Source: Streptomyces sp. NBC_01803 (GTDB taxonomy: Bacteria > Actinomycetota > Actinomycetes > Streptomycetales > Streptomycetaceae). From it: a stretch of 64,000 nt of DNA. The translations under genes were made by a program, and so were the position numbers. Below the pieces are notes generated by a model. The model made no database searches. It was given only the letters and a program-made list of their open reading frames with translations, and was not told the DNA's origin. The stretch is taken from NCBI RefSeq assembly GCF_035917415.1, contig NZ_CP109073.1, positions 5,636,001 to 5,700,000 of the forward strand. The letters are read 5' to 3'. Within the stretch, counting starts at the first letter, position 1. Every line of letters begins with the position of its first letter. This document shows positions 53,442-60,267 of this stretch, piece after piece.

Positions 53442-54230
53442 GTGCCCGATGATGAGTTCGACCCGGCTCGACTGGTGACCAAAGATGTCGCGCGGAAGCT
53501 CTCCGAGGAGGGGTGGGTCTTTGTACCGGGGGAACGGATCGCCCTTGCGGGGGAAGCCTCAGCGTTCCAGGCCGAATCCCACAGTACTTGGGAGGGTCTT
53601 CCTGCCGACCCCTACACGTCTGCGGGGACGGGCCGGTACCGGCGCTACAGCAGGTGGGTCTGGGAAGGAACCTCGCGAGCGAGCGGCCTCGGCGGCACTC
53701 TTCTCGCGGCCCGTCACCTGCCGTACCACCAAGCACCCGAAATCAACCCACTCGTGGGTGGTGTGCACCGCACCTTCCCGCCCCTGCCGGAATCGGTGCG
53801 CGACAGCGCTCTGCTGAGGACCCTGCTGCGCTTCGATCTGGCGGCAGCCGGGGCAGGGCCGGGCCGCTGGGAGGTGGATGTGCACATGGTGCGCATCGTG
53901 CCGGGGCCTGGTGGGCTGGGACAGCCGGCTCCGGAAGGAGTGCACAAAGACGGCCTGGATGTCGTCGCGATTCACCTTGTCGAGCTTCGGGGACTGGAGG
54001 GAGGGGTGAGCAGCGTATTCGACGACTTCGGACAAGAACGCGGGCGCGTGCGGCTGGAGAGCTGCCTGGACTCGCTGTTGGTGGATGACCGTCGGCTGAC
54101 GCACTTCACCACGCCAGTCGTTCGGTCGGCCCGGGGCGCTGACGGCAGCCCGGTCCAGGCATGGCGTGATGTGCTCCTGGTGGGTCTGCGCCGCTCGGAG
54201 AACGGGGAGCGCCCGGCGCGTCGTTCGTAA
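53442..54230 (+). CDS. 2OG-Fe(II) dioxygenase (amino-acid hydroxylase-like, 2OG-Fe_Oxy_2 type)
   Basis: 262 aa from GTG 53442, with GGGGGGAGA six bases upstream. An N-terminal helical part (LVTKDVARKLSEEGWVFVPG) is followed by a jelly-roll core with iron ligands in EGVHKDGLDVVAIHLVELRG (His168, Asp170) and THFTTPV (His221), and GGVSSVFDD between them. This matches the family of free L-isoleucine 4-hydroxylase, so an amino acid or a peptide side chain is the likely substrate. It is co-directional with the repeat protein and kinase downstream, separated by a hairpin. Its codon use is less GC-extreme than the flanks. Confidence 0.75.
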   Translation: MPDDEFDPARLVTKDVARKLSEEGWVFVPGERIALAGEASAFQAESHSTWEGLPADPYTSAGTGRYRRYSRWVWEGTSRASGLGGTLLAARHLPYHQAPEINPLVGGVHRTFPPLPESVRDSALLRTLLRFDLAAAGAGPGRWEVDVHMVRIVPGPGGLGQPAPEGVHKDGLDVVAIHLVELRGLEGGVSSVFDDFGQERGRVRLESCLDSLLVDDRRLTHFTTPVVRSARGADGSPVQAWRDVLLVGLRRSENGERPARRS

Positions 54231-54245
54231 TCGGGTAGCCACACC

Positions 54246-54278
54246 TGGGCGAGCCCGCGCGGGGCCCGGACTCGCCCA
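54246..54278 (+). terminator. Hairpin between the dioxygenase and the repeat-protein gene
   Basis: TGGGCGAG/CTCGCCCA (8 bp) encloses a second small palindrome (CCCGCGCGGG), starting 16 bases after the stop. It suggests that the next genes have their own promoter in 54279-54452; TAGCGT near 54331 may be a -10 box. Confidence 0.5.
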
Positions 54279-54452
54279 CCATACTTATTACCTTTCCGGG
54301 CAGGCGAGTTGGGCCAGACGTGCTAGCGTGGGCACCTTCCGAAGCGGCTTACCGTCCCGAGTATGTGATTCGAGCTTGCCGGGAAGATCCGGGGACCACG
54401 GGATGCGGTGGAGGTTCGCTGGAACGTCTACAGAATCACGGAACCCGATGAC

Positions 54453-55709
54453 ATGACCAATGACAACGTGAATTTTCGTGAGTCAATGGGTGGGGATTCA
54501 GGCGATTCGGCACGTGACGGTGCGAACGCCCAGCGCTTCTTCGACGATCTCGGCCGTCGGCAGGCCGCAAGAGATGCCCAGGACCGTTCGACGTTGATCG
54601 ACTGTCTTAACGAAGGTCTCCGGTTAGCACATGAGCATCACCTGGGACTCGGGTGGCTCGTGGATGCGGCCTACGCCTATGTCGGGGATCACGTCTGGGA
54701 GGGCACGCTTTGCCCTCGGGTGCCAGGCGTCAAGGTGGATTCCGCCGTACCGATCACAACGGCTGGCCAGGCCCTGGCCATCGCACTTGTCGCCGTGGTC
54801 GAACGTCAGCATAGGCATCGCGGTGGCACGGAGGCCGTCCTGCGGCGCTGTTTGGACGTCGCGTTGCTGGACGGTGAGGCTCGGGACTTGGTGGCTTACT
54901 TCCACGCTGAGACGACCCGGGACCTGGGGCGGGTCACCGAGTCGGAAGGCGAACTACGGGAACTCGTGGTCCGGGGGGCGAGGCTCGCCGACACAGCCAG
55001 GAAGGGCCTGATCCATCTGCAGCGAAGGGCCGGCCGCTTCCGCGACATCAACGCCGATCTGACCGGCGTGGTCCCAGCGCCCGTCTGGTCCCGGCTCGCT
55101 GGAGACCTCTGGTGGACCCAGGCGTGCTTCGAGCGCGCTGATGAGTGCTATGTGGCTGCGCGTGACCAAGCATGGTCATGCGGAGCGGTGGGCGAAGCCG
55201 CCCTTTCCGAAGCATGCCGTGGTTTCGCCGCCGGATTTGGGGAGCCGGGCACGGCGGAGCGGGTCATCGAGTCCGCTCGGGATTTGCTCAGTGCGGTGGA
55301 CATCACCTGGGCCGGACTTCAGGTCGCCCTCGGCGAGCTCCTCACGACCGCGGGTGCCGATGGCGACTTCCACGCCAAGTGCGACGAGATCGCCGTCAGG
55401 GCACGCTCCGCCGGGCTCAGCTCCAGCGCTGCCTATGCGGAGCTCGCCCGCGGCTTCCACTGCTCGGTTCGGCGTGACCGCGCCGGGATCGCTGTCGCTC
55501 GGGACGCTCTGCGTCAGCATGCGAGAAGCGGACAATTCGGCTACCTTCTTGAGATCGTTCGCTTCTGCTCCACAGGGGACGGTGGAGAAGACGGTGAAGA
55601 AGACCTTGCCGTTGCTTCCGACTGGATCGACGGCGTGGAAATTACCGCGGCTCGCTGGCGTGACACGGTCGAGCGGCGGCGTACATACCTGAACCGTGAT
55701 CATGCCTGA
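54453..55709 (+). CDS. Helical-repeat protein, paralogue of the STAND NTPase C-terminal half
   Basis: 418 aa, no NTPase domain. Helical pairs resemble TPR-type repeats. Nearly every block recurs in the C-terminal half of the STAND protein at 57616-60267: EGLRLA/QGLRLA, GRFRDI/GRFPDV, GDLWWTQ/GDLWWTQ, GEAALSEACRGFAAGF/GEAALSQACLAFAAAF, AGLSSSAAYA/GGLSSSIAYA, FGYLLE/FAYLLE, DWIDGVE/QWIDGRE. It is therefore a stand-alone version of that sensor or effector half. The start is uncertain (ATG 54453 chosen; in-frame GTG 54408 and ATG 54486 possible). It is followed after 23 bases by the kinase gene. Confidence 0.75.
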   Translation: MTNDNVNFRESMGGDSGDSARDGANAQRFFDDLGRRQAARDAQDRSTLIDCLNEGLRLAHEHHLGLGWLVDAAYAYVGDHVWEGTLCPRVPGVKVDSAVPITTAGQALAIALVAVVERQHRHRGGTEAVLRRCLDVALLDGEARDLVAYFHAETTRDLGRVTESEGELRELVVRGARLADTARKGLIHLQRRAGRFRDINADLTGVVPAPVWSRLAGDLWWTQACFERADECYVAARDQAWSCGAVGEAALSEACRGFAAGFGEPGTAERVIESARDLLSAVDITWAGLQVALGELLTTAGADGDFHAKCDEIAVRARSAGLSSSAAYAELARGFHCSVRRDRAGIAVARDALRQHARSGQFGYLLEIVRFCSTGDGGEDGEEDLAVASDWIDGVEITAARWRDTVERRRTYLNRDHA

Positions 55710-55732
55710 GGGACAACCAGGAACCCATTAAT

Positions 55733-56662
55733 ATGGCCCATTACACCAAGCTCGATGTCTCCACGATCCAACGTCTGTGCGCCGCTTTCGGACTGGTCGT
55801 CCACCACGCCGAGAGCCTGGACGGAGGAATGGCCAATTCGAGCTACCTGACCCGGGGACCTCAGGGACTTCACGTTCTGACGGTGCTCGACAATCACGAT
55901 CCTGATTCCGCACGGAACTTGGGAAACCTCTTGCGCCACCTGAACGGCGAGGGCGTGTCGACACCAGCCCCACTCATTACCTCCGACGGTGCGATCATCG
56001 CTGTCCACGAGAGGCGTCCGGTGATGGTCAGGCCCTATGTGGCGGGTAGGTGCCACAAGGTGCTACCGGGACGTCTCCTTCCCGCAGTCGGCGCCGCGCT
56101 CGCCGTCGTGCATGGCATGCCTGTGGACGGTGTCCCCGCTGTTCCCTTCCAGGGCCGACGACTGCCCGTCGAGGCGCGTCTCCACTGGGGGACCTTCCGC
56201 GACCGCGGCTTCGCCGCCTGGTTGTCGGCCACGTGGCCGGAGGTCGACCCCACCAGGTGGGGAGGCACCAAGGCTGTCCTTGTGCACGGCGACCTGTTCG
56301 CTGACAACATCGTGGTCGCTGGTGAGGAACTGGTCATCCTTGACTGGGAGACTGCCTCCGTGGACGATCCCCTCATCGATCTGGGTATGTGCGTTGTCGG
56401 GCTCTGCCACGTCGAAGGACGATTCCGCCCCGATCGCGCACGGCTCCTCTTCCGCGGCTACCGGGCAGCCGCTGGGAGGCCGAAGTATGGTTCCGGCGAC
56501 TTGTATCGAGCCGCCGTCTACGCCGCAGTGGTCATCGCACATCACCGATATGTGCGGCACCACGTCACGCATCCCGACCCGGCTTATCAGCATCTCTACC
56601 GTGAAATGCCACCATTCGTCGAGCAAATGCGCGCGGAGTGGATGCCCTCCCTTTCCGTCTGA
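55733..56662 (+). CDS. APH/homoserine-kinase-like phosphotransferase A
   Basis: 309 aa. Kinase-like fold of the aminoglycoside phosphotransferase group: nucleotide loop DGGMANSSYL (29-39), beta-strand HVLTVLDNHD (47-56), catalytic loop VHGDLFADN (His185, Asp187, Asn192) and metal Asp204 in ILDWETASVDDP. The Thr in VLTVLD where many APHs have Lys is as in homoserine kinase type II, so a small hydroxy-amino-acid substrate is plausible. All catalytic residues are present. It converges on the paralogous kinase B with 22 bases between the stop codons. Confidence 0.8.
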   Translation: MAHYTKLDVSTIQRLCAAFGLVVHHAESLDGGMANSSYLTRGPQGLHVLTVLDNHDPDSARNLGNLLRHLNGEGVSTPAPLITSDGAIIAVHERRPVMVRPYVAGRCHKVLPGRLLPAVGAALAVVHGMPVDGVPAVPFQGRRLPVEARLHWGTFRDRGFAAWLSATWPEVDPTRWGGTKAVLVHGDLFADNIVVAGEELVILDWETASVDDPLIDLGMCVVGLCHVEGRFRPDRARLLFRGYRAAAGRPKYGSGDLYRAAVYAAVVIAHHRYVRHHVTHPDPAYQHLYREMPPFVEQMRAEWMPSLSV

Positions 56663-56684
56663 TGGGCGGCGCGGACCAGATGCC

Positions 56685-57605
56685 TCAGACTGTGAACGAC
56701 AGCTGCTCGGCCACGTCGGCGATGTCCATCATCTCCCTGAACATCTGGGCCTTCGCCATATCGGGGAACCGAACATTGTGCCGGTGGTAACGATGAAAGG
56801 CGATGATCAGTGCGGCATGTTGTACCGCTCGGGGTAGTTGTCGCAGGTCCCCGTCCTCCAGGTCACCGGCCTCGCGGTATCCGACGATGAACTCCCCCGC
56901 TCGCTCCTGTGACAGTGCTTCCCCCACCCGGGCATGCCCGACCAGGGCCATGCCGATGTCCAGGAGAGGGTCATCGACCGTCGCGGTCTCCCAGTCGAGA
57001 ATCGCCAGGCTGCCGTCAGGGCGCACGACGATGTTGTCGGCATGGAAGTCGCCGTGCACGAAGCAGTGCCTTCGCCGCGTGCCGTCCATGCGGGGAGACC
57101 GCTTCAGGTGGCGTCTCAGCCACTGGGCGAAATCCTGGTCGGGGAAGGTGTCGATCGCTCGAAGGTGAGCGTCGGACAGTCGACGGGTTCCGATCGGAAG
57201 GCGAAGGCCGTCGCTTCGCGTCCGATGCAACTGGGCAAGCAGCCGCCCCGCCGGCCGGAGAAGTGCGACGGGCAGTTCCTCGAGGGTCCTGCCCGGCAAC
57301 CAGCGTTTGAGGACAGTCGGCCGACCGTGCATGTCGGTCACCCGGGTGCCGGCGAGGGACGGAACGACTTCGCTGGTCGGCACGCTTCGCCGCCAGAGTT
57401 CCGTATTCAGTCCTGCCAGCCGCTCGGCACCAGCGAGATCATGATTGTCCAGCACAGTCAGCACATACTTCCCCTGTGCCGCCGTCGCCAGGAAGCTGGA
57501 ATTGGCCATTCCCCCCTCGAGCGGAGCGAGGTGGAGCTCGTCGAGGCCGTATCGTCCGGCGATCAGCGGCTGGTCGACGTCGGCGAGCGTCGTGTAGGAG
57601 GCCAT
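56685..57605 (-). CDS. APH/homoserine-kinase-like phosphotransferase B
   Basis: 306 aa, paralogue of kinase A in near-perfect register: EGGMANSSFL (30-39), YVLTVLDNHD (47-56), VHGDFHADN (His184, Asp186, Asn191), ILDWETATVDDPLLD (Asp204). Both proteins also share a C-terminal H-R-Y segment (FHRYHRHNV here, HHRYVRHHV in A). ATG 57605 matches the start of kinase A (MASYTTL vs MAHYTKL). It begins ten bases after the STAND stop, so both are surely one operon. Active by motif; substrate unknown. Confidence 0.8.
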   Translation of the reverse strand: MASYTTLADVDQPLIAGRYGLDELHLAPLEGGMANSSFLATAAQGKYVLTVLDNHDLAGAERLAGLNTELWRRSVPTSEVVPSLAGTRVTDMHGRPTVLKRWLPGRTLEELPVALLRPAGRLLAQLHRTRSDGLRLPIGTRRLSDAHLRAIDTFPDQDFAQWLRRHLKRSPRMDGTRRRHCFVHGDFHADNIVVRPDGSLAILDWETATVDDPLLDIGMALVGHARVGEALSQERAGEFIVGYREAGDLEDGDLRQLPRAVQHAALIIAFHRYHRHNVRFPDMAKAQMFREMMDIADVAEQLSFTV

Positions 57606-57615
57606 GACCGCATTA

Positions 57616-60267
57616 TCACCGCGTCGGAGTGATATGCCGACGGCGTCCGATGACAAGTCCTGACCATCGGTCAGCGGTTCGTTCCCGGCCATCGATCCAC
57701 TGGGCCCGATGCAGGTGATGGGGGGGCTCCGACCCCGTCATGAAGTAGGACAGCTCGAGTAGGTAGGCGAACTCCGCGCCGCGTACGCATCGCTGCAACT
57801 GGGAACGCGCTGTCGCGATCAGGGACACCTCTCCAGTGATTACCGCGTGAAAGCAGAGGGCGAACCGGGCATACGCGATGGATGACGATAAACCGCCGAC
57901 CTCGGCCTCTCTCACCACCGCCTCCGCGCGGTCCTGCACGTCACCATCATTCCCGGCGTCACGCAGCAGCTCCGCGATGCTCACCTGCACGGTTGCCCAG
58001 CGGATGTCTGCTTGACCGAGCATCGACCGCGCTCTGTCGATCTGCTCCTGAGCTCGTTGCCGATCCTGGAAGGCAGCGGCGAATGCCAGGCATGCCTGGC
58101 TAAGGGCCGCTTCACCATAGAGCCGCTGCTCCTCGGCCTCGTCACGGCCTGCGGCATAGGCGGCGCAGGAGGCGGCGATGTCGCCCTGAGTCCACCACAG
58201 GTCGCCCAATACTCTCTGTTTTCTCCCATCGGGACCCAGGCGGTTGGCGGCGTCCAGTACGTCGGGAAACCGGCCGAGGCGTCGGCTGAGATGAGCCAGC
58301 CCACGGGCGGCCCGCCCGGCCAGCCGGGCGTTGGCTTGGACGACATGCCGCATCCCGGCGGCCGATGCGTCCAAGTGCCCGAGATCGCGAGCGCACTCCG
58401 CCAGGTGATACCTGGCGAGCTCGTCCGCAGCCGCGGGAAGCAGGCCCGACTCGATAACTGTCTCCAGAACCTCGGCGGTTCGCTGCCGGTGGACATGTTG
58501 ACGGCTGGCAACGGTGTGCAGGACGACGGCCAGGGCTTCGGGGGGACTACCGATCCGTGTCGGGTTGAAGTCCAGATCGATCGGTTCCCATACGGAGTCC
58601 TCGATATAGGAGAAGGCGGCGGCCGTCAGCCAGTCCGGGTCCAACCGGAAGTCCCGGGCCAACCGTAAGCCTTGACGTAGGCAGGCCATGAGCACCTTGC
58701 GATCGCCGCACGGCTCGGCCCGAGCCAACTCCCGGCCCAGTGCGTCAAACGCGCGCTGCGCTGCGCGCCTCCAGTCAGCCGCACTCCAGCGGTCCTCACT
58801 GTCGGCATCGGTGTCACGGATCGCATCCCGCAGGAGATCATGCAGATGATATGGCCACGGAGCGGAGGGGTCCTGGTCGATGAAAGGGCGCTCGACCAAG
58901 TGCAGTGCGGGAGTGTCCCGGTCGTAGCCGGCGACTGCCGTCGCGAGTTCCACGGAGAACGAGTCCAGCAGGCTCACTCCCCGCAGCAACTGGCGTTCCT
59001 CAGAGGACAGATCGCGGAAGGTACGGGCGACCAGTGCCGGAAAGTCGAGGTTGAACTCCTCGGGGCTCGGGTGCCGATCCCGCTGCTGGTACAGATCAAG
59101 GAAGCGCATGACGGCCAGATCCAGGTACAGCGGCAAGCCCCTGGAATGCGAGATCACCTGTTGCCTGGTCGAGTGGCCCATCAGAGGCTCTCCGTCCTGC
59201 GTCAGCCGACGGCACAGATATTCATCGCAGTCCTGGGCCGACAGATAGCCGACCCGGTGCTGCCGAGGATCCTGTGTCGCCCCGGGCACCAGGAACGGCC
59301 AGGCACGTGGCCCTGTCCAGTCCAGTTGTCCCTCCAGACGCCCCTCGTCCCACTGCAGTCGGTTCCGTCCGGTGATCACGAACAGGGCGTTGGGCATCAG
59401 CCAGACAACCCGCTGAATCAGACGTTCCAACTCTCGATGGGCGCGGCTGCCCACGTCCTCGAACGTATCCAGTAACACGACGGGCAGCGCGGCCTGTTCA
59501 GCCGGTAATTGGGCGAGGTCCCAAGCGAGCAGGTGAGCGTAATAGCTGAGCGTCTCCAGGTCCGGCTCGGCCTCCAGCAGGTCCGGCAGTCTGCGGCATC
59601 GCGCCAGCGCGCGTACTTGCTGACGGTGTTCTCGAAGCGCCCGCACAATGGTCCGCAGCCCCCGGCCCACAACGTTGCCGACCGTCCCGGGCAGCAGAAA
59701 CGCCTGCGCGAGGTCGGCGAGGGCGGACTCCATCTGCGCCGACAGGCTCATCGAGTCCGACAGACGCCCGAGGAACCTGCTTCCGTGCAGATACTCATCG
59801 AGCGTCTGGCCGGGATGGTTCGCCTCCCACCAACGGCGCAGGGCCAAGTCGAACGCCGGCATCGGCCGTCCCAGTCGTGCGACGGTCAACCGCAACGCGA
59901 GCATCAGCGTCTCGAAGTCCGTTCCGGCCTGTCGGGACAGGTCGATCCGTACCGGCAACAGGCGCGCGGGGAGATCGAGAAGCGGCGGCCAGTGATTCGG
60001 TCCCCCCTCGCCTCCCGCAAGCTTCTCCGCGGCGTTGTGCGACAGGCTTGTCTTGCCGATGCCACCGACACCGTAGAACATCAGAACGTTACGGCGCGGC
60101 TCCTCGAAGTCCTCGACGTCGAATCCCGGGTCGCTCATCCCCGCCACACAGGCCGTTACGCTACGGGCGATGGCCTCCCACTCGTCCTCTCTGTCGGAGA
60201 ACACTTCCTCGGCCGACAGATCGGGACTGTTGGAACGGAACAGCGTGCGCAGATCGCGCCGCGTCAT
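57616..60267 (-). CDS. STAND-type P-loop NTPase with C-terminal helical repeats
   Basis: 883 aa from ATG 60267 (GGGGGG tract upstream). Residues about 20-500: EVFSDREDEWEAI docking helix, Walker A GVGGIGKTS (66-74), Walker B in LPVVLLDTFEDVG (near 270), a VITGRNRLQWDE sensor-like strand, SRGLPLYLDLAVMRFLDLYQ in the GxP region of STAND ATPases, then a winged-helix-like part. Residues about 520-883 are helical repeats paralogous to the protein at 54453. STAND proteins stay monomeric until a ligand binds and then oligomerise; many act in immunity against phage or in regulation. The partner here is a kinase rather than a fused nuclease or TIR domain. Confidence 0.82.
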   Translation of the reverse strand: MTRRDLRTLFRSNSPDLSAEEVFSDREDEWEAIARSVTACVAGMSDPGFDVEDFEEPRRNVLMFYGVGGIGKTSLSHNAAEKLAGGEGGPNHWPPLLDLPARLLPVRIDLSRQAGTDFETLMLALRLTVARLGRPMPAFDLALRRWWEANHPGQTLDEYLHGSRFLGRLSDSMSLSAQMESALADLAQAFLLPGTVGNVVGRGLRTIVRALREHRQQVRALARCRRLPDLLEAEPDLETLSYYAHLLAWDLAQLPAEQAALPVVLLDTFEDVGSRAHRELERLIQRVVWLMPNALFVITGRNRLQWDEGRLEGQLDWTGPRAWPFLVPGATQDPRQHRVGYLSAQDCDEYLCRRLTQDGEPLMGHSTRQQVISHSRGLPLYLDLAVMRFLDLYQQRDRHPSPEEFNLDFPALVARTFRDLSSEERQLLRGVSLLDSFSVELATAVAGYDRDTPALHLVERPFIDQDPSAPWPYHLHDLLRDAIRDTDADSEDRWSAADWRRAAQRAFDALGRELARAEPCGDRKVLMACLRQGLRLARDFRLDPDWLTAAAFSYIEDSVWEPIDLDFNPTRIGSPPEALAVVLHTVASRQHVHRQRTAEVLETVIESGLLPAAADELARYHLAECARDLGHLDASAAGMRHVVQANARLAGRAARGLAHLSRRLGRFPDVLDAANRLGPDGRKQRVLGDLWWTQGDIAASCAAYAAGRDEAEEQRLYGEAALSQACLAFAAAFQDRQRAQEQIDRARSMLGQADIRWATVQVSIAELLRDAGNDGDVQDRAEAVVREAEVGGLSSSIAYARFALCFHAVITGEVSLIATARSQLQRCVRGAEFAYLLELSYFMTGSEPPHHLHRAQWIDGRERTADRWSGLVIGRRRHITPTR

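Follow-up and report, generated by a model that had tools for sequence, protein, structure and literature searches.

The STAND antiphage sensors of the AVAST (Avs) and bNACHT types and the NTP-dependent ternary conflict systems are the described systems with which the locus presented here is best compared. Avs proteins combine an NTPase with a C-terminal repeat sensor. The locus lies in Streptomyces sp. NBC_01803, in a stretch of 64,000 nucleotides that was analysed as a whole and is called the window below (positions 5,636,001-5,700,000 of a single-contig genome of 5.85 Mb). It encodes a STAND NTPase and a kinase, KINB, on one strand and, facing them on the other, a dioxygenase (DIOX), a repeat protein (REP) and a second kinase, KINA. 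The STAND protein resembles the Avs and bNACHT sensors in its combination of an NTPase with a C-terminal repeat sensor and in its patchy distribution; it differs from them in that its own chain carries no known effector domain and its partner is encoded by a separate kinase gene. Our preferred reading, held tentatively and with confidence slightly short of even, is that the locus contains a sensor/phosphotransferase conflict module, mobile and of patchy distribution, whose STAND protein switches on a homoserine-kinase-like enzyme.

Ternary conflict systems are centred on an NTPase, many of them are actinobacterial, and a few employ aminoglycoside phosphotransferase (APH) kinases as effectors, possible modifiers of low-molecular-weight substrates, according to the passage of Kaur et al. 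that deals with these effectors (Kaur et al. 2020, PMC7159879). This passage is the nearest published description. The core of the cassette differs from the systems as set out there in consisting of two genes only, for a STAND protein and a kinase, and no match to vWA, MoxR or VMAP was found with Pfam, NCBIfam and PADLOC in the five cassette proteins, to which the scan was confined; the cassette is thus not classed with the ternary systems. A description of a STAND-kinase or STAND-zeta system was not found among the literature matches listed, in a search of titles and abstract openings that had subscription papers and preprints outside its scope.

By sequence comparison, STAND and KINB are a conserved pair. 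The preliminary description had made the idea of one system depend on conserved linkage of the STAND and kinase genes, and this linkage was borne out when their co-occurrence was analysed. Among 38 genome-contig loci with a STAND relative, KINB was found directly downstream at all seven non-fragmentary loci with a STAND at least 57 % identical to that of the window (57-69 %), while no KINB-type kinase was found beside the STAND at the remaining ones; at one locus (L032) STAND and kinase have both decayed, and it was still counted as linked. As one hit (G438) is apparently the same contig as locus L005, 12 distinct STAND-KINB loci are known besides the window. The kinase occurs in 8 of 392 sampled genomes of the genus, the own one included, and has the STAND gene directly upstream in six of the seven others. 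In 197 genomes of the order the kinase was present in 2 and a STAND or REP relative in 14, and in a phylum-wide sample of 396 genomes the kinase was present in 1 and a STAND in 2 (own genome included in each case). Among the matches listed in the protein database, the longest contig of 42 of 119 kinase clusters was exactly equal in size to that of one of 118 STANDs, against 0.2 expected from jittered lengths. A tree of 44 STAND proteins, which left out six fragmentary loci of the 38 (L034, L037, L039-L042), places kinase linkage in a single clade with one change (SH-aLRT 100), its 15 linked rows including 2 that were linked by equal contig size only.

The STAND protein itself has the parts that define its class, a P-loop nucleotide-binding domain with Walker A and B motifs, a winged helix and a C-terminal repeat sensor, and the motifs GxGGxGK and DTFE are invariant among 39 aligned STAND sequences. 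Its matches to family profiles are weak, with Pfam NB-ARC under its cut-off. The STAND-tetratricopeptide repeat (TPR) structure 6mfv was the sole Foldseek match of the predicted structure with an E value of 0.001 or lower (E 2.9e-7, TM-scores of 0.36/0.47); MalT (8bob) was matched weakly (E 3e-3). No known effector domain was found in the STAND chain, in which some 60 residues lie ahead of Walker A. None of the PADLOC models for Avs matched the protein, which gave a weak match to DolB only (E 0.011) and is not assigned to the AVAST/Avs class. In the predicted structure the TPR half superposes best on the RRNPP peptide receptors Rap, AimR and NprR, a likeness of fold only; unlike these receptors, it is attached to a STAND NTPase.

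Both kinases have the sequence hallmarks of APH-fold phosphotransferases. They matched PF01636 (APH) with 79.6 and 95.1 bits against a cut-off of 23.2 (E 4e-22 and 7e-27), and H186, G187, D188, D192, N193 and D206, with the motifs HGDxxxDN and DWE, are invariant among 41 kinases. The nearest family models for KINA and KINB are those of homoserine kinase type II (ThrB/PRK05231; 2ppq), with which they share the fold, a profile match over nearly the full length and the catalytic motifs. They differ from that family in falling far under its cut-offs, with PRK05231 and TIGR00938 scores of 96.2 and 65.7 bits for KINB and 89.2 and 43 for KINA against cut-offs of 271 and 255.9, and they are not assigned to it; an HRYxRH-like helix motif is nearly invariant in their own family. 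The ranking of KINB matches bears on the idea that the cassette encodes an antibiotic-modifying resistance kinase controlled by a STAND sensor, which we regard as highly improbable. The amicoumacin kinase AmiN ranks second and a spectinomycin kinase sixth among the fold matches, and macrolide kinases match KINB by sequence, but homoserine kinase comes first both by fold (2ppq) and by family profile. Zeta toxins, which accompany a sister clade of STAND proteins (see below), are not known as resistance enzymes, and regulation of resistance by a STAND protein that has no DNA-binding domain would, to our knowledge, be unusual.

More distant homoserine-kinase-like genes are present on two Streptomyces plasmids (L112, L113), in nonribosomal peptide synthetase (NRPS) clusters with urease-like subunits and a second phosphotransferase, and in L113 also with a 2-oxoglutarate (2OG) oxygenase; their products are 33 and 27 % identical to KINB. 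No close relative of KINB was found on plasmid records, the best full-length match being 33 % identical.

The sister clade of the kinase-linked STANDs has a different companion. At its 29 loci, among them that of the second STAND copy of the own genome (L004), no match to KINA, KINB or DIOX was found at E 1e-4; the contig of one of them (L012) ends 59 bases past the STAND gene, and absence of the kinase is not proven there. At 24 of the 29, STAND is preceded on the same strand by a zeta-toxin gene, 0.4-3.2 kb upstream, and the interval usually holds an oppositely oriented gene of about 90 codons. The remaining five STANDs form one clade with neither kinase nor zeta. No zeta gene was found at the 12 kinase-linked loci, of which L079 has only 2 kb upstream, or in the window. 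Pfam PF06414 was matched by all four zeta proteins tested, two of which, of about 600 aa, hold two matched stretches each. Of 72,556 plasmid records, 100 contained STAND relatives (97 from Streptomyces), and five of the six such records that were opened are linear. On all 26 plasmids common to the listings of both genes, zeta lies upstream of STAND on the same strand and within 6 kb; this count draws on 46 STAND and 45 zeta records among the matches listed, not on all that exist, after exclusion of partial-cover rows (22 of 60 for STAND, 15 of 60 for zeta) and addition of 8 STAND rows from another listing. The order of zeta, small opposite-strand gene and STAND is conserved (L072, L073 and 22 other loci) and common on Streptomyces plasmids such as the linear SAP1, where the STAND protein is mostly annotated as 'ATP/GTP-binding protein'. 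On two plasmids of S. longwoodensis (L130, L131) remnants of zeta and STAND abut, apparently in a decayed state. A zeta-STAND fusion suggested by the matches listed for this species, with its STAND part largely unannotated and both parts resembling remnants, was not used.

Two related STAND clades thus accompany two unrelated small-molecule kinases, as judged from their sequences. The different kinase beside the sister clade hints at a sensor-triggered kinase switch, and because the type of kinase changes between the clades, STAND may be seen as both sensor and switch and the kinase as a separate effector. Epsilon-zeta toxin-antitoxin systems resemble the sister clade in having a PF06414 zeta kinase, there upstream of STAND; they are unlike the cassette, since zeta is absent from the window and the cassette kinases have the APH fold. 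That KINB is a growth inhibitor restrained by STAND or REP in the manner of a toxin-antitoxin pair, with zeta in the same role in the sister clade, fits the zeta-toxin neighbour and its frequent location on plasmids. We give this reading very little credence, because in one case the kinase is retained in the absence of STAND, an argument against a strong toxin, and because a small opposite-strand gene that is usually present at the zeta loci could itself be the antitoxin, which leaves STAND free.

The preliminary description had noted that the plus-strand genes REP and KINA meet the minus-strand pair STAND and KINB tail to tail, with a dioxygenase just upstream and 22 bases between the converging kinase genes. 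Open reading frames and strands agree with this layout (Table 1), DIOX lying on the plus strand, and the 22 bases are those between the stop codons of KINA and KINB. KINB starts 10 bases past the end of STAND on the same strand, and 23 bases separate REP from KINA. Many of the searches used queries starting 11, 1 and 2 codons ahead of the starts of DIOX, REP and KINB (from 53409, 54450 and 57611, respectively). The cassette has the lowest G+C content in the window (0.65-0.66) and low coding scores, DIOX and KINA having been missed at the first gene-calling threshold. It was probably acquired.

Table 1 Features of the cassette, with positions in the window
Feature	Positions	Strand	Remarks
DIOX, 2OG-Fe(II) dioxygenase	53442..54230	+	PF10014; HxD...H...R motifs retained; nearest named model HilB
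REP, stand-alone helical-repeat (TPR-like) sensor half of STAND, without NTPase	54453..55709	+	418 aa
KINA, APH-fold kinase, homoserine-kinase-like	55733..56662	+	catalytic HGDLFADN and LDWE intact
Gap between convergent kinase genes	56663..56684		22 bases
KINB, APH-fold kinase, STAND-linked partner	56685..57605	-	306 aa; model pLDDT (predicted local distance difference test) 93; nearest solved fold homoserine kinase 2ppq
STAND NTPase: nucleotide-binding domain with Walker A/B, winged-helix part, C-terminal TPR sensor	57616..60267	-	883 aa

An inverted duplication with loss of the NTPase from one copy had been proposed from the paralogy of the two arms. REP aligns to residues 503-880 of STAND with 40 % identity (E 4e-71), and KINA and KINB are likewise 40 % identical (E 5e-54). 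When C-terminal halves were placed in a tree, the 6 REP rows formed one clade within the kinase-linked lineage (21 rows, support 100). Among the kinases, the 2 KINA rows came out as sister to the 28 KINBs, albeit with a warning from the tool about long outgroup branches. Because REP nests in the kinase-linked lineage and KINA is sister to the KINBs, the mirror arm can be regarded, with the support of these sequence trees, as an old duplicate of the STAND-kinase pair that lost the NTPase half. A topology that joins REP to the subclade of the STAND in the window was not rejected (p-AU 0.596).

The geometry of the five genes recurs in Streptomyces CBMA152 (L006) and is therefore not due to chance. 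Identities between the two cassettes are 49-64 %, and the ratios of nonsynonymous to synonymous substitution rates (dN/dS), calculated from the gene starts of Table 1 by a simple count method and rough because dS is 1.1-1.5, are 0.18-0.41. The respective values are 62 % and 0.25 for DIOX, 64 % and 0.18 for REP, 62 % and 0.22 for KINA, 49 % and 0.41 for KINB, and 61 % and 0.25 for STAND. REP and KINA are thus, by these estimates, under purifying selection; constraint on the mirror arm is similar to that on STAND, and KINB is the fastest-changing of the five. Stand-alone REP was also found in four further database proteins (348-438 aa), two of them on contigs equal in size to those of STAND and KINB matches. 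With REP kept in these four proteins and in L006 at a dN/dS of 0.18, the idea that it is a decayed STAND was discarded. The five genes are not supported as one standard system, as the preliminary description had framed them: ten of the 12 other STAND-KINB loci carry STAND and KINB alone, which rules out an obligate five-gene system, and one (L006) has the full mirror cassette with DIOX. The twelfth (L035) cannot be judged because its contig stops 976 bases past STAND.

DIOX is a 2OG-Fe(II) dioxygenase by its match to PF10014 (157.5 bits, cut-off 23.1, E 4e-46), and the HxD...H and Arg motifs are present in both the window and the L006 cassette. Its nearest named model is HilB, 3(1)-hydroxy-L-isoleucine 4-dioxygenase, with a score under the cut-off of that model. 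DIOX relatives occur in 90 of the 391 other genomes of the genus, at no more than 41 % identity, and a kinase or REP gene was nearby in none of 29 fetched DIOX loci (1.5 kb flank), so that linkage of DIOX to these genes elsewhere was discarded. DIOX belongs to a common family and was recruited to the cassette as an optional component. In a biosynthetic or detoxification pathway, DIOX would hydroxylate an amino acid, KINA and KINB would phosphorylate the hydroxyl group under regulation by STAND and REP, and a natural product or phosphohomoserine-like antimetabolite could result. The affinity of DIOX to the amino-acid hydroxylase HilB, that of the kinases to homoserine kinase, and the KINB relatives in the plasmid-borne NRPS clusters all agree with such a pathway. 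It is nevertheless rather improbable, since the conserved core is STAND-KINB, to which a dioxygenase is seen to be added in L006 only among the 12 other loci, and since no KINA- or KINB-type kinase was found within 1.5 kb at the 29 other DIOX loci fetched.

A defence role for the cassette is plausible from its surroundings. The preliminary description had proposed a check for enrichment next to known defence genes, and hallmark defence genes were found near at least three of the 12 STAND-KINB loci and in none of 12 control regions. The loci are L008 (type I methylase, OLD/AriA-like and GajB-like genes), L035 (PglX) and L079 (DrmA, DrmB). The neighbourhood set comprised 111 proteins, up to five per side and excluding those above 1300 aa, with L035 and L079 cut by contig ends, and the control set 117 proteins. 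Three of 12 is a minimum, as 25 of the 141 matching PADLOC families were considered; 8 neighbour proteins were chosen by eye, and the controls matched 10 PADLOC families (mad3, mad8, C3a186, DEDDh, subtilase and others), none judged to be a hallmark. In L008 (3208-21288) the OLD/AriA-like, GajB-like and Ser/Thr-kinase genes lie on one side of STAND-KINB and the type I methylase on the other, likely as a defence island.

Several observations weigh against a defence module of this kind. The excess of defence genes is not significant when loci are counted, and the controls were drawn from just four genomes, at hand-picked positions. Regulators of the XRE/DUF397 type are also frequent neighbours (HTH_31 in 7 of 111 neighbours and 2 of 117 controls; DUF5753 in 8 of 111), which is consistent with a regulatory role. 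Signalling in Streptomyces development or antibiotic production, in which the TPR half would sense a peptide or metabolite of the organism itself and the kinase would make a signal or shift a metabolite pool, is unlikely, yet has an appreciable chance of being right. No match was found in phage and viral contig collections. One genome (G230) has a KINB-type kinase (L080, 9912-10841) without any STAND match, and the second STAND of the own genome (L004), 53 % identical, has neither kinase nor zeta. Zeta is set apart from STAND in the sister clade, usually by the small opposite-strand gene, for which reason the two are not operonic. Finally, a KINB-only query gave ACAD11 and macrolide kinases as the best solved relatives, with homoserine kinase seventh. 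Other genes stand close to two of these loci: by eye, a gene 1 kb upstream of the lone kinase of G230 resembles an XRE-type regulator, and an HNH_2 gene lies 56 bases downstream of the second STAND of the own genome (L004, 9210-12835).

In the sensor/phosphotransferase module that we favour, STAND would use its C-terminal TPR half to sense a trigger and would assemble with NTP. Without a known effector domain of its own, it would act through the kinase encoded just downstream, and KINB, as an active homoserine-kinase-like enzyme, would phosphorylate a small hydroxyl-bearing metabolite, most likely arresting growth or blocking an invader. The mirror arm would descend from an old duplication of the pair, of which only the sensor (REP) and the kinase (KINA) were retained and to which a dioxygenase was added. 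REP may serve as a second sensor, or as an adaptor or decoy bound to the STAND assembly or retaining KINA; DIOX may produce or modify the substrate of KINA. The pairing of dioxygenase and kinase suggests a hydroxylated amino acid as this substrate. Given the chemistry of the family, its phosphorylation by KINA could yield a phosphohomoserine-like antimetabolite. A bolder proposal, improbable on balance but with some real chance, is a new class of immunity in which an effector-less STAND commands a separate small-molecule kinase, of a type swapped between sister clades (homoserine-kinase-like APH or zeta), and a duplicated sensor-only arm with kinase and dioxygenase serves as a second channel, the product of which might be a phosphorylated hydroxy-amino-acid antimetabolite.

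If STAND sensors drive separate metabolite kinases, a metabolic output would be added to NLR-like immunity in bacteria. The two sister clades offer a natural comparison, with one sensor family and two unrelated kinases, and the mirror cassette a test of what the sensor half does without its NTPase. If true, the proposal would also give a testable role to the 'ATP/GTP-binding protein', so far unexplained, that many Streptomyces plasmids encode.

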